64,000 nt of DNA from an uncultured Pelagibacteraceae bacterium (GTDB taxonomy: Bacteria; Pseudomonadota; Alphaproteobacteria; Pelagibacterales; Pelagibacteraceae), in NCBI GenBank assembly GCA_902515355.1, contig CABXUA010000001.1:40048-104047 (forward strand). The letters run 5' to 3'. The first letter of the stretch is position 1. The number at the start of each line of letters is the position of its first letter. This document shows, piece by piece, positions 9,057 to 12,526 of this stretch. A program made the position numbers and the translations under genes. A model generated the notes under the pieces. The model had not been told where the DNA came from. It was given only the letters and a program-made list of their open reading frames with translations, and did not search any database.

Positions 9057-10445
9057 ATGACTTTTATTTGTAGGTTTGCTCCCTCACCTACGGGACCTCT
9101 GCATATTGGCGGTGTAAGAACTGCACTATTCAATTGGCTACTAGCTAAAAAAAACAAAGGGAAATTTTATTTAAGAATAGAAGATACTGATAAAGAAAGA
9201 TCGAAAGACGAATTTAGAAAACAAATTATTTCCTCATTAAATTGGTTGGGTATAAAACACGATGGTAAAGAATATATACAATCTAAAAATATTAAAAAAC
9301 ATAAAGAAATAGCTGATGAGTTAATAAAGAAAGGATTCGCATACTATTGCTACTGTTCAGAAGATGAAATTAATGAACAAAAAGAAAAATGTAAAAAACA
9401 AGGGATACCTTATGTTTACAATAGAAAATGGAGAGATGCCAAAGATCTTAAAATTCCAGAGAATGTTAAACCAGTTGTTAGATTTAAAAGTAAAATTTCT
9501 GGAATGTCCTCAATTAAAGATTTAGTTCAAGGTGAAATGAGTCTTTCCAATCTAACAATTGAAGATTTTATAATTTTAAGACAAGATAACACTCCTACTT
9601 ACCAACTTTCTGCTACAGTTGATGATCATGAAATGGGAATAACTCATGTTATTAGAGGTGATGATCACAAGATTAATACCTTTAAACAAAAACAAATATA
9701 CAGTGCTTTGAATTGGGCTGTACCTGAATTTGCTCACATACCATTAATTCATAGTGAAACGGGGAAAAAACTTTCTAAAAGAGATAAAGCTTCTACAATT
9801 GACGATTATATTAAAACAGGAATTTTGTCAGATGCTCTTAGAAATTATTTATTGAGGTTGGGTTGGGCTCACAAAGATAAAGAAATTTTTTCCTTAGAGG
9901 AAAGCATTAATCTTTTTGATTTAAAAGGAGTTGGTAAATCTCCATCTAAACTTGATATGAGCAGAATTCTCTCCATTAATGAGTATTATATTAAGCACAT
10001 AGAAGAAAAAAAATTATTTGAATTATTGAAAAACTATTGTGAAAAATTCAACAAACCAGTCAAATCTTCTAAATCTAGCGTAATTTTAAAATCAATTAAT
10101 TTTTTAAAAAATAAAGCTAAAACACTTGAAGATATTTATCAGAATGCCCGATACATTCTTAATGATGAAGTTAAGATATCAGCAGAGGATAAAAATCTAA
10201 TCAATCAGTCTTCTAAGGCTATATTAAAGGACTTTCTTGATTCTTTTGAGAAAATTAAAAAAATAGATAAGAATAGTTTAGAAGAAATAATCAATAAATT
10301 GATAAAAGCTCATAAAACAAATTTTAAAGGTGTTGGGCAACCGTTGAGAATTGTTCTCACTGGTTCTAAATTTGGTCCAGCCGTTTACGATATTCTTCGC
10401 TCACTAGATAAAGAAGAAATTATTAAAAGACTTAAAAATATTTAA
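9057..10445 (+). CDS. gltX: Glutamate--tRNA ligase
   Basis: This class I aminoacyl-tRNA synthetase charges glutamate onto tRNA-Glu. The 462 residues contain the HIGH motif as PLHIGG (residues 14-19) in RFAPSPTGPLHIGGVRTALFN, the DxE-type RIEDTDKERS, and the KMSKS motif as GKKLSKRDKAS. A C-terminal helical anticodon-binding domain ends with GQPLRIVLTGSKFGPAVYDIL. It follows lexA by 19 bp on the same strand. In related genomes comEC often lies between lexA and gltX and gltA follows gltX; neither is present here. Confidence 0.96.
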   Translation: MTFICRFAPSPTGPLHIGGVRTALFNWLLAKKNKGKFYLRIEDTDKERSKDEFRKQIISSLNWLGIKHDGKEYIQSKNIKKHKEIADELIKKGFAYYCYCSEDEINEQKEKCKKQGIPYVYNRKWRDAKDLKIPENVKPVVRFKSKISGMSSIKDLVQGEMSLSNLTIEDFIILRQDNTPTYQLSATVDDHEMGITHVIRGDDHKINTFKQKQIYSALNWAVPEFAHIPLIHSETGKKLSKRDKASTIDDYIKTGILSDALRNYLLRLGWAHKDKEIFSLEESINLFDLKGVGKSPSKLDMSRILSINEYYIKHIEEKKLFELLKNYCEKFNKPVKSSKSSVILKSINFLKNKAKTLEDIYQNARYILNDEVKISAEDKNLINQSSKAILKDFLDSFEKIKKIDKNSLEEIINKLIKAHKTNFKGVGQPLRIVLTGSKFGPAVYDILRSLDKEEIIKRLKNI

Positions 10446-10462
10446 TTCAATCTGCGTCCTTT

Positions 10463-10492
10463 AAGTTTATTGAAATTCAACTCAATAAATTT
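10463..10492 (+). repeat. Inverted repeat (11-bp stem, 8-nt loop) between gltX and the ATP-grasp gene
   Basis: The arm 10463-10473 (AAGTTTATTGA) is complementary to 10482-10492 (TCAATAAATTT), with one G-U pair. There is no T-run after it, so it is not a good intrinsic terminator. It could be an operator or a leader hairpin for the gene starting at 10504. The AT-rich arms make a chance origin possible. Confidence 0.35.
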
Positions 10493-10503
10493 ATAAAAAC
10501 ATC

Positions 10504-11427
10504 ATGAAAAAAATATATGTGATACATGAAAATGATGAATGGATTGAACCATTACGAAAAAGTTTTATTAAAATAGGCGCTCCATATACAGAGTGGCATA
10601 TGGACAAAAAAAAATTTGATCTTAAAGAAAAATGTCCAGATGGCATTTTTTATAATCGTATGAGTGCTAGTTCACATTCTCGAGGTCATAGATATGCGCC
10701 TGAAAAAACTAAAGAGGTTTTAGAATGGCTTGAAAAAAACAATAAAAGAATAATAAATAATTCAAGAGCTTTAGAGCTTGAAATAAGTAAATTGAAACAA
10801 TACCAAGAACTTAAAAAATTTAAAATAAGATTTCCTAAAACATTTTCTGCTGAAAATAAAGAAGAGCTTATTGAAAAATCAAAAAATTTTGATACACCTT
10901 TTATTACAAAACATAATAGAGGTGGTAGAGGTCTCGGTGTAAAATATTTTGAAAATACTCATGATCTTAAAAAATATACTTATGGAAATAATTTTGAGGA
11001 ATCCATTGATAAAATTACTTTGCTTCAAGAATATATTTTTTCTGAAAAACAAATAATCACGAGAGTTGAATTTGTGAAAGGTAAATTTTTATATGCTGTT
11101 CAGGTCGATACTTCGGATGGTTTTCAGTTGTGTCCAGCGGATCCATGTAATGTGGAAGAAAATTTTTGTCCCACTAATTCTGATGGTAATAAATTCATGA
11201 TTATAAAGAATTATCATAACCCAGAAATACAAAAATATGAGAAATTACTATCTGAAAATAATATCGAAATAGCTGGGATAGAATATATAGTCGATAAAGA
11301 GGGCTTGCACTTTACTTATGATATCAATACTAATACAAATTATAATTCTATCGCTGAAGAAAAAAGTAATATTAAAGGAATGGATTCTATTGCGAGTTTT
11401 CTAAATAGTGAACTAAAACTGAACTAG
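10504..11427 (+). CDS. ATP-grasp ligase of unknown substrate (RimK/glutathione-synthase-like)
   Basis: This 307-residue protein looks like a carboxylate-amine ligase of the ATP-grasp fold. It has an N-terminal pre-ATP-grasp region (KIYVIHENDEW; PDGIFYNRMSASSHSRGHR). A glycine-rich nucleotide loop follows (TKHNRGGRGLGVKYF, about residue 136) with the LLQEYI adenine-contact strand. The Mg-binding end has an acidic/Asn triad in YDINTNTNYN (Asp273, Asn275, Asn277). A Cys-containing insert, CPADPCNVEENFCP, is distinctive. RimK-type glutamate ligases are the nearest family I can name, but the substrate is unknown. It occupies the place where gltA usually follows gltX, and its last 41 bases overlap the convergent lpxB. 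Confidence 0.72.
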   Translation: MKKIYVIHENDEWIEPLRKSFIKIGAPYTEWHMDKKKFDLKEKCPDGIFYNRMSASSHSRGHRYAPEKTKEVLEWLEKNNKRIINNSRALELEISKLKQYQELKKFKIRFPKTFSAENKEELIEKSKNFDTPFITKHNRGGRGLGVKYFENTHDLKKYTYGNNFEESIDKITLLQEYIFSEKQIITRVEFVKGKFLYAVQVDTSDGFQLCPADPCNVEENFCPTNSDGNKFMIIKNYHNPEIQKYEKLLSENNIEIAGIEYIVDKEGLHFTYDINTNTNYNSIAEEKSNIKGMDSIASFLNSELKLN

Positions 11428-12526
11428 CAATTTGAGAAGATCTTTCTGATTTAAAATTATTAATTATTCTCTGGGTTTTTTTTACCTGATTTTCTAATCT
11501 TGTCTTATCGTTTAAAAGAAAGTCAACAGTTTCAAATATATTGGAAGAATTACATTTAGATTGTAGTAATTCAGGAATGATTTCTTCGTTGGCTGCAATA
11601 TTAATAATATTTGCATATTTAACTTTAACCAGCATTTTCACTATAAAATAATTAATTAAACCCATTTTGTAGATAATTATGGAAGGTATTTTTGCATTAC
11701 AAATTTCTAAAGAAATTGTTCCAGATTTTGCTACTGCAAACATTGATGATTGAAGAATATGAGATTTTATCTTATCGTCGCTTATTGCGCCACAATTTTT
11801 AAATCCTTCTTTAAGTAATAGATTTTGAATTAGTTGTACATGTTCAGCTGTTGAGTGAAAAACAAAAAATAAATCTTTGTGTTTTTCGTTCATCTTTTTA
11901 ACGAATTCAAATAATACTGGAATTAAAATATTTATTTCTGATAATCTACTTCCTGGATAAATAGAAAATATTTTTTTGTTATCTTTGATTATTTGAGTAA
12001 TATCAACTTTACTTTTGCTCTGCTCTTCCAACAAAGGGTGGCCTGTGAATGTTGACTGTATACCCTCTTTATCGAAGTATTTTTTCTCAAATGGGAACAA
12101 TAATAAAACATGGTCTAAAAATGATTTAAGTTGCTTAATTCTATGTTCTCTCCAAACCCAAACTTGAGGTGCTACAAAATGAATTGTTTTTATACTCGGA
12201 TCTTTTTTTTTAACTTCTTTGGCTACCCGTAATGTAAAATCAGGACTATCTACAGAAAACAAAACATCGGGTTTAAATTTAAGTATCTTTTCAACTGTCT
12301 CATTTATTTTACTTTTTATTTTAAAAATATTTAATAAAACTCTCGTAAATCCTAAGTAAGTAACTTCTTTTAAATCATAAAGAGATTTAATCCCTAAAGC
12401 TTTTAAATTTTCACCTCCAACAGATAAATATTCTATATCTGAATTTGAATTTTTTAGTTGAGAAATCACTTTTGAAGCTAATTTATCTCCTGAAGGTTCG
12501 CCTGTTAAAATAAAGATTTTCTTCAT
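11387..12526 (-). CDS. lpxB: Lipid-A-disaccharide synthase
   Basis: LpxB joins UDP-2,3-diacylglucosamine to lipid X, forming the lipid A disaccharide at the inner membrane. The 379 residues begin with the GT19 signature KIFILTGEPSGDKLASKVI. They continue with YLGFTRVLLNI, FSVDSPDFTLRVA, HFVAPQVWVWREHR, LLFPFEKKYF, FTGHPLLEE, IYPGSRLSEI and VAKSGTISLEICN. The start overlaps the stop of the upstream dehydrogenase by four bases (ATGA). Its 3' end overlaps the convergent ATP-grasp gene by 41 bp. Confidence 0.96.
   Translation of the reverse strand: MKKIFILTGEPSGDKLASKVISQLKNSNSDIEYLSVGGENLKALGIKSLYDLKEVTYLGFTRVLLNIFKIKSKINETVEKILKFKPDVLFSVDSPDFTLRVAKEVKKKDPSIKTIHFVAPQVWVWREHRIKQLKSFLDHVLLLFPFEKKYFDKEGIQSTFTGHPLLEEQSKSKVDITQIIKDNKKIFSIYPGSRLSEINILIPVLFEFVKKMNEKHKDLFFVFHSTAEHVQLIQNLLLKEGFKNCGAISDDKIKSHILQSSMFAVAKSGTISLEICNAKIPSIIIYKMGLINYFIVKMLVKVKYANIINIAANEEIIPELLQSKCNSSNIFETVDFLLNDKTRLENQVKKTQRIINNFKSERSSQIASSVLVHYLENSQ

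Follow-up and report, generated by a model that had tools for sequence, protein, structure and literature searches.

A conserved, uncharacterised ATP-grasp ligase family of SAR11 bacteria, with a tentative link to sulfur metabolism

The open reading frame at positions 10504–11427 of the window (the whole stretch of 64,000 nucleotides that was analysed, part of contig C1 in the 75% complete, 0.77 Mb assembly of an uncultured Pelagibacteraceae bacterium) encodes a genuine member of a conserved and uncharacterised ATP-grasp subfamily, and its apparent replacement of citrate synthase is an artefact of position. The product is very probably a ligase of the RimK-like superfamily, and probably an active one, as judged from its Pfam score, its profile and fold matches, the conservation of the residues for ATP and Mg, and the dN/dS ratio of the gene. 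By the established chemistry of ATP-grasp enzymes, a carboxylate would be phosphorylated and its acyl group transferred to an amine. Since the chemistry of the superfamily is well known, the interest of this protein lies in its substrate, and it derives from a hint of sulfur metabolism among relatives and from lineages apparently devoid of glutathione genes. No description of the family was found in the literature covered, most subscription papers being outside its scope.

The gene and its locus

The gene lies between gltX and a convergent lpxB:

9057–10445, plus strand: gltX, the upstream neighbour, separated by a gap of 58 bp (10446–10503) from the ATP-grasp reading frame
10504–11427, plus strand: ATP-grasp ligase reading frame of 307 aa, ATG to stop, with a match to PF08443 (RimK)
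11387–12526, minus strand: lpxB, the convergent downstream neighbour, overlapping the ATP-grasp reading frame by 41 bp at the stop ends

The first-pass annotation had reported an intact ATP-grasp frame of 307 residues after gltX, and this was borne out at the coordinates given above. The closest named homologue comes from a contig of AG-916-G03, an uncultured isolate of the Pelagibacteraceae, and is 95% identical, which places the host in SAR11; comparison with the nearest homologue gave a dN of 0.025 and a dS of 0.256 (dN/dS about 0.10). The reading frame is under strong purifying selection and is a real, intact gene; conservation and the dN/dS ratio exclude a chance frame or a pseudogene. 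The opposite strand contains many stops. A scan gave no information on promoters or terminators: it found 15 promoter-like sites, where 21.5 were expected, and no terminator. A phage origin was considered and rejected, as no relative was present among the IMG/VR viral contigs and the sole cyanophage match was partial, at 32% identity.

The same annotation had placed the ATP-grasp gene in the position of citrate synthase. Its observation that gltA is missing from the gltX–lpxB junction was correct; however, gltA has a locus of its own, as a single intact copy in the same assembly (G000:C8:18097-19143), which rules out a replacement of citrate synthase. At the junction, where the genes of relatives were named by eye from their translations, gltA adjoins lpxB in three deeper SAR11 lineages (G005, G032 and G009), gltX directly adjoins lpxB in G003 and G057, and a gene of 220 aa separates the two in G027. 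The ATP-grasp gene occupies this position in the window genome and in G114, and genus g2 shows there the order umuD-umuC-ATP-grasp-NMT1-like gene. The gltX/lpxB junction is thus a variable, insertion-prone site, and because its contents vary among SAR11 lineages the loss of gltA is best taken as one event and the presence of the ATP-grasp gene as another. Across the SAR11 loci L034, L035, L046, L129, L130, L132 and L133 the junction was seen to hold nothing, gltA, umuDC, a MocA-like gene, an HDAC-like gene or the 220-aa gene.

Family assignment and fold

The protein passes the gathering cut-off of the Pfam RimK model PF08443 (25.6 bits against 21), which is also matched by 20 of the 25 family members at E ≤ 1e-3. 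Among the NCBIfam models the highest score goes to the RimK subfamily, TIGR00768 (50.8 bits, far under its cut-off of 143.4), and TIGR02144 (LysX/ArgX) scores 30.6 bits, under its cut-off of 275.6. None of the NCBIfam models of substrate-specific ligases was over cut-off for the 307-aa protein, which rules out identity with a known ATP-grasp equivalog. The earlier description of the product as an uncharacterised ATP-grasp ligase agrees with the Pfam, NCBIfam and profile comparisons, in which no close relative of known substrate was found.

A profile built from 25 relatives matched LysX/ArgX, RimK and related structures over about residues 67–200 only, the best match being LysX/ArgX 3vpb (E 1.2e-10), with the similarity to LysX/ArgX limited to residues 74–188, and profile comparison also matched the RimK, LysX and MptN models. 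An hhalign comparison with E. coli RimK covered residues 68–203 (E 5.8e-10). An AlphaFold model built from four sequences reached a pLDDT of 61.7, its strands and helices being modelled with confidence as far as about residue 50 and the segment 178–239 being too weak for a reading of the pocket. The top Foldseek matches of this low-confidence model were LysX/ArgX, RimK, MdnC, PsnB and DcsG (E 2e-10 to 1e-8), but their TM-scores were low, around 0.3, as would follow if the domain packing of the model were unreliable.

The lead taken by RimK, LysX and ArgX in both sequence and fold comparisons, with a RimK subfamily as the nearest NCBIfam model, favours a modification of proteins of the RimK kind, in which amino acids would be added to a ribosomal or other protein and no small molecule would be made. 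This reading is improbable, given a score so far under the RimK cut-off, an aligned part that comprises the ATP-binding half only (residues 67–207), the replacement of the F-R-S-N stretch described below, and neighbourhoods in which a recurrent carrier protein or S6 was not noticed.

Conserved residues of the active site

Residue conservation was counted over an alignment of 25 diverse family members. The features recognised, all on the plus strand, are as follows:

10504–10788, plus strand: N-terminal region preceding the ATP-grasp domain (residues 1–95), with the family-invariant E9, W13, R52, S54, S56 and R60
10651–10704, plus strand: family signature YNRMSASSHSRGHRYAPE (residues 50–67), from the alignment and column counts
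10909–10950, plus strand: ATP-binding lysine and glycine loop KHNRGGRGLGVKYF (residues 136–149), aligned to E. coli RimK
11026–11037, plus strand: hinge QEYI (residues 175–178), with Q175 and Y177 invariant, from hhalign and column counts
11062–11064, plus strand: R187, counterpart of the Arg in RimK D-I-R, kept in 24/25
11122–11148, plus strand: F-Q-L-C-P-A-D-P-C (residues 207–215), the family motif where RimK has F-R-S-N
11281–11283, plus strand: E260, probable Mg ligand and counterpart of the Asp in RimK AGVD, 25/25
11317–11340, plus strand: YDINTNTN (residues 272–279), corresponding to RimK E-V-N; D273 and N275 probably bind Mg; D273, N275 and N279 in 25/25

Residues K96, K136, N138, Q175, Y177, E260, D273, N275 and N279 are invariant (25/25), and the glycine-loop residues G141, G143 and G145 are kept in 24/25, so that the residues for ATP binding are retained in 24–25 of the 25 relatives. 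The exception is G233, with an in-frame gap over the loop. This homologue (L088:7349-8251) lacks the loop through an assembly error or a real loss; in G345 and G1061, of the same genus, the loop is intact.

The glycine loop and the metal motif YDINTNTN, both pointed out in the first reading of the sequence, are present and kept in relatives. The cysteine-containing stretch, which had been taken for an unusual insert, is instead a family motif, F-x-L-C-P-A-[DE]-x-C, in which F207, L209, C210 and P211 are invariant (25/25) and C215 is found in 23/25. The second CP (residues 222–223) is not conserved, with C222 in 13/25. The CPA motif was placed opposite F-R-S-N by hand alignment; since the hhalign alignment stops immediately short of the motif and that with GshB is weak, its register may be off by about one residue. 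The signature YNRMSASSHSRGHRYAPE probably faces the substrate. By these sequence marks, YNRMSASSHxRGHR and FxLCPADxC, the family is a distinct one.

Distribution

The family is present in 37/147 Pelagibacteraceae genomes (5 of 14 genera), in 20 of the 289 Alphaproteobacteria genomes of a class sample, in 4/399 of a phylum sample under a stricter threshold, and in one of 274 genomes of another proteobacterial class, that of G677. Plasmid homologues occur in Pediococcus (43% identity) and Spirosoma (28%). In the tree the SAR11 members form one group (support 98/94), and the gene is therefore either old within SAR11 or was gained once there, and later moved between loci. Three paralogues were observed in the alphaproteobacterial genome G1059 (L114, L115 and L116), in metY/sulfate transporter, metZ-osmC and cydAB-like contexts.

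Gene neighbourhoods of relatives

The first-pass annotation had held that the substrate could not be guessed from neighbours; this is so for the window locus, but the neighbours of relatives hint at sulfur and thiol metabolism, with genes for sulfite reductase, O-succinyl- or O-acetylhomoserine sulfhydrylase and a sulfate transporter among them. In three genomes of genus g101 the ATP-grasp gene directly precedes cysI, and where the flank is long enough, in two of them, cysI is followed by a peroxiredoxin gene and metZ, with SUMT/cobA as well in G233, whose cysI product scores 684.6 bits against the NCBIfam model PRK13504 (cut-off 457). Family f135 shows the order metZ-osmC-ATP-grasp, and a second paralogue there is flanked by metY on one side and, on the other, by genes for CysP and a CysA-like ATPase. 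The order is lipB-lipA-ATP-grasp-cystathionine gamma-lyase in G677 and ATP-grasp-gshA-gshB-metY in the SAR11 genome G106, and in another SAR11 genome, G057, MsrB-like and peroxiredoxin-like (both named by eye) and MBL-fold proteins are encoded beside the gene. Enzymes of the PLP-dependent Cys/Met-metabolism family PF01053 lie within 5 kb in 4/22 lineages against 0.40 expected (P 5.8e-4), in a test made post hoc, once the neighbours had been seen, and with gene counts per genome tallied by hand. This enrichment is supportive, not proof; such a neighbour is absent in 18 of the 22 lineages, the window locus included. From these neighbourhoods, and from nothing at the window locus itself, a role in sulfur amino-acid or thiol metabolism can be put forward tentatively as the leading candidate.

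Its main rival is a general L-amino-acid or dicarboxylate ligase, which would conjugate imported Glu, Asp or a C4-dicarboxylate with an amino acid to give a dipeptide or a compatible solute. On Pediococcus plasmids and, independently, in the reduced alphaproteobacterial genome G358 (1.3 Mb), the gene immediately upstream of the ATP-grasp gene encodes a symporter of the GltP/DctA type, in Spirosoma two amino-acid permease genes follow the ATP-grasp gene, and the characterised RimK-like enzymes attach glutamate or similar amino acids. Such conjugation is slightly less likely than the sulfur role: the pairing with symporters or permeases is confined to few lineages, the symporters score under the NCBIfam thresholds of GltP and DctA and may carry cystine, and the cysI, metZ, metY and cysP neighbours would be left unexplained. 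On the plasmids of Pediococcus acidilactici (L070:8083-10921 and L072:6818-10921) a thioredoxin-like gene, the dicarboxylate/amino acid symporter gene and the ATP-grasp homologue are consecutive, and IS30 interrupts the symporter gene in one copy. In the divergent branch of Spirosoma and G634 a luciferase-like monooxygenase gene follows the ATP-grasp gene, directly in G634 and after the permease genes in Spirosoma; that of G634 is related to SfnG/SsuD, under cut-off.

Other neighbours in SAR11 and elsewhere, identified mostly by eye, are stress-related or unrelated (umuDC, katG, a photolyase-like gene, queA-tgt and a TRAP transporter). In AG-414-N03 and in genus g2 the umuD-umuC pair is the immediate neighbour of the ATP-grasp gene; in G032 the pair lies nearby. 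Its occurrence directly before or near the gene at different SAR11 sites (L034:11497-14110, L035:7871-10484, L033:2151-5020 and L040:5745-10390) suggests that umuD-umuC and the ATP-grasp gene form a travelling cassette in SAR11. The proximity of umuD-umuC, the patchy spread among Pelagibacteraceae and the variable gltX/lpxB junction would fit a passenger of stress islands, that is, an accessory gene swapped at variable SAR11 sites along with umuDC, photolyase-like, katG, Msr and peroxiredoxin genes, serving tolerance of damage or oxidants and having no fixed partner. This reading is quite unlikely; it is silent on the chemistry, and it is compatible with a thiol product.

Glutathione genes and proposed function

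Neither gshA nor gshB was found in the window genome or its nearest relative, G114, in 7/7 genus-g2 genomes tested or in G057; each of these genomes has the ATP-grasp gene. Although the window assembly is 75% complete, a true absence in this lineage is likely because G114 and all seven g2 genomes agree, and several SAR11 lineages appear to be without glutathione synthesis. Home-made glutathione is accordingly an unlikely substrate in the window lineage, the two genes being found neither in its genome nor in its closest relatives with the ATP-grasp gene. Both gshA/gshB and the ATP-grasp gene are present in G106, G005, G019, G032 and G048 (also in G130, which is 5% contaminated), and four genus-g1 genomes have none of the three. 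A simple replacement of gshAB is not supported, since genomes with both and with neither exist.

In the sulfur role proposed above, the enzyme would use ATP and Mg to convert a carboxylate into an acyl phosphate, which an amine (less likely a thiol) would attack to give an amide-type conjugate. In this way cysteine, or another sulfur amino acid related to it, could be joined to a further amino acid, yielding a small protective or storage thiol. A more specific proposal is a long shot: the family would make an undescribed Cys-containing thiol of low molecular weight (a dipeptide, for example) serving SAR11 and other glutathione-lacking bacteria, and the invariant CPA motif would contribute to catalysis or bind a metal. 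SAR11 bacteria are among the most abundant cell types of the ocean, and their dependence on reduced sulfur is well established. To our knowledge, which small thiol is used by SAR11 lineages apparently without glutathione synthesis is an open question, for which a conserved ATP-grasp ligase with some relatives in sulfur-assimilation operons offers a concrete and testable candidate.

Comparison with known systems

The graspetide macrocyclases MdnB, MdnC and PsnB, and DcsG, have a similar fold by Foldseek at 10–14% identity; around the family members viewed, in a survey that was not systematic, no RiPP precursor or cycloserine cluster was seen. The amino-group-carrier ligases LysX/ArgX provide the best profile match (3vpb) and the best fold match (5k2m). 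No LysW-type carrier gene was noticed by eye in the neighbourhoods listed, which covered reading frames above 60–100 aa, and a short carrier could have escaped notice.

With RimK, the S6--L-glutamate ligase, the protein has in common the order of the ATP-grasp domain, the glycine loop, the hinge, the Arg of D-I-R and the carboxylate/Asn metal motif. In contrast to RimK, it carries FxLCPADxC instead of F-R-S-N and an N-terminal signature of its own, its C-terminal half is unaligned, and no link to S6 was seen.

GshB differs in that its profile match is weak (E 0.043) and in that a genuine gshB, not found in the window assembly, coexists with the gene in some genomes; the window protein gave no match to the GSH-S_N domain (PF02951) or the glut_syn model. 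GshB is a member of the same superfamily and makes a thiol tripeptide, and in the SAR11 genome G106 its gene lies near the ATP-grasp gene.
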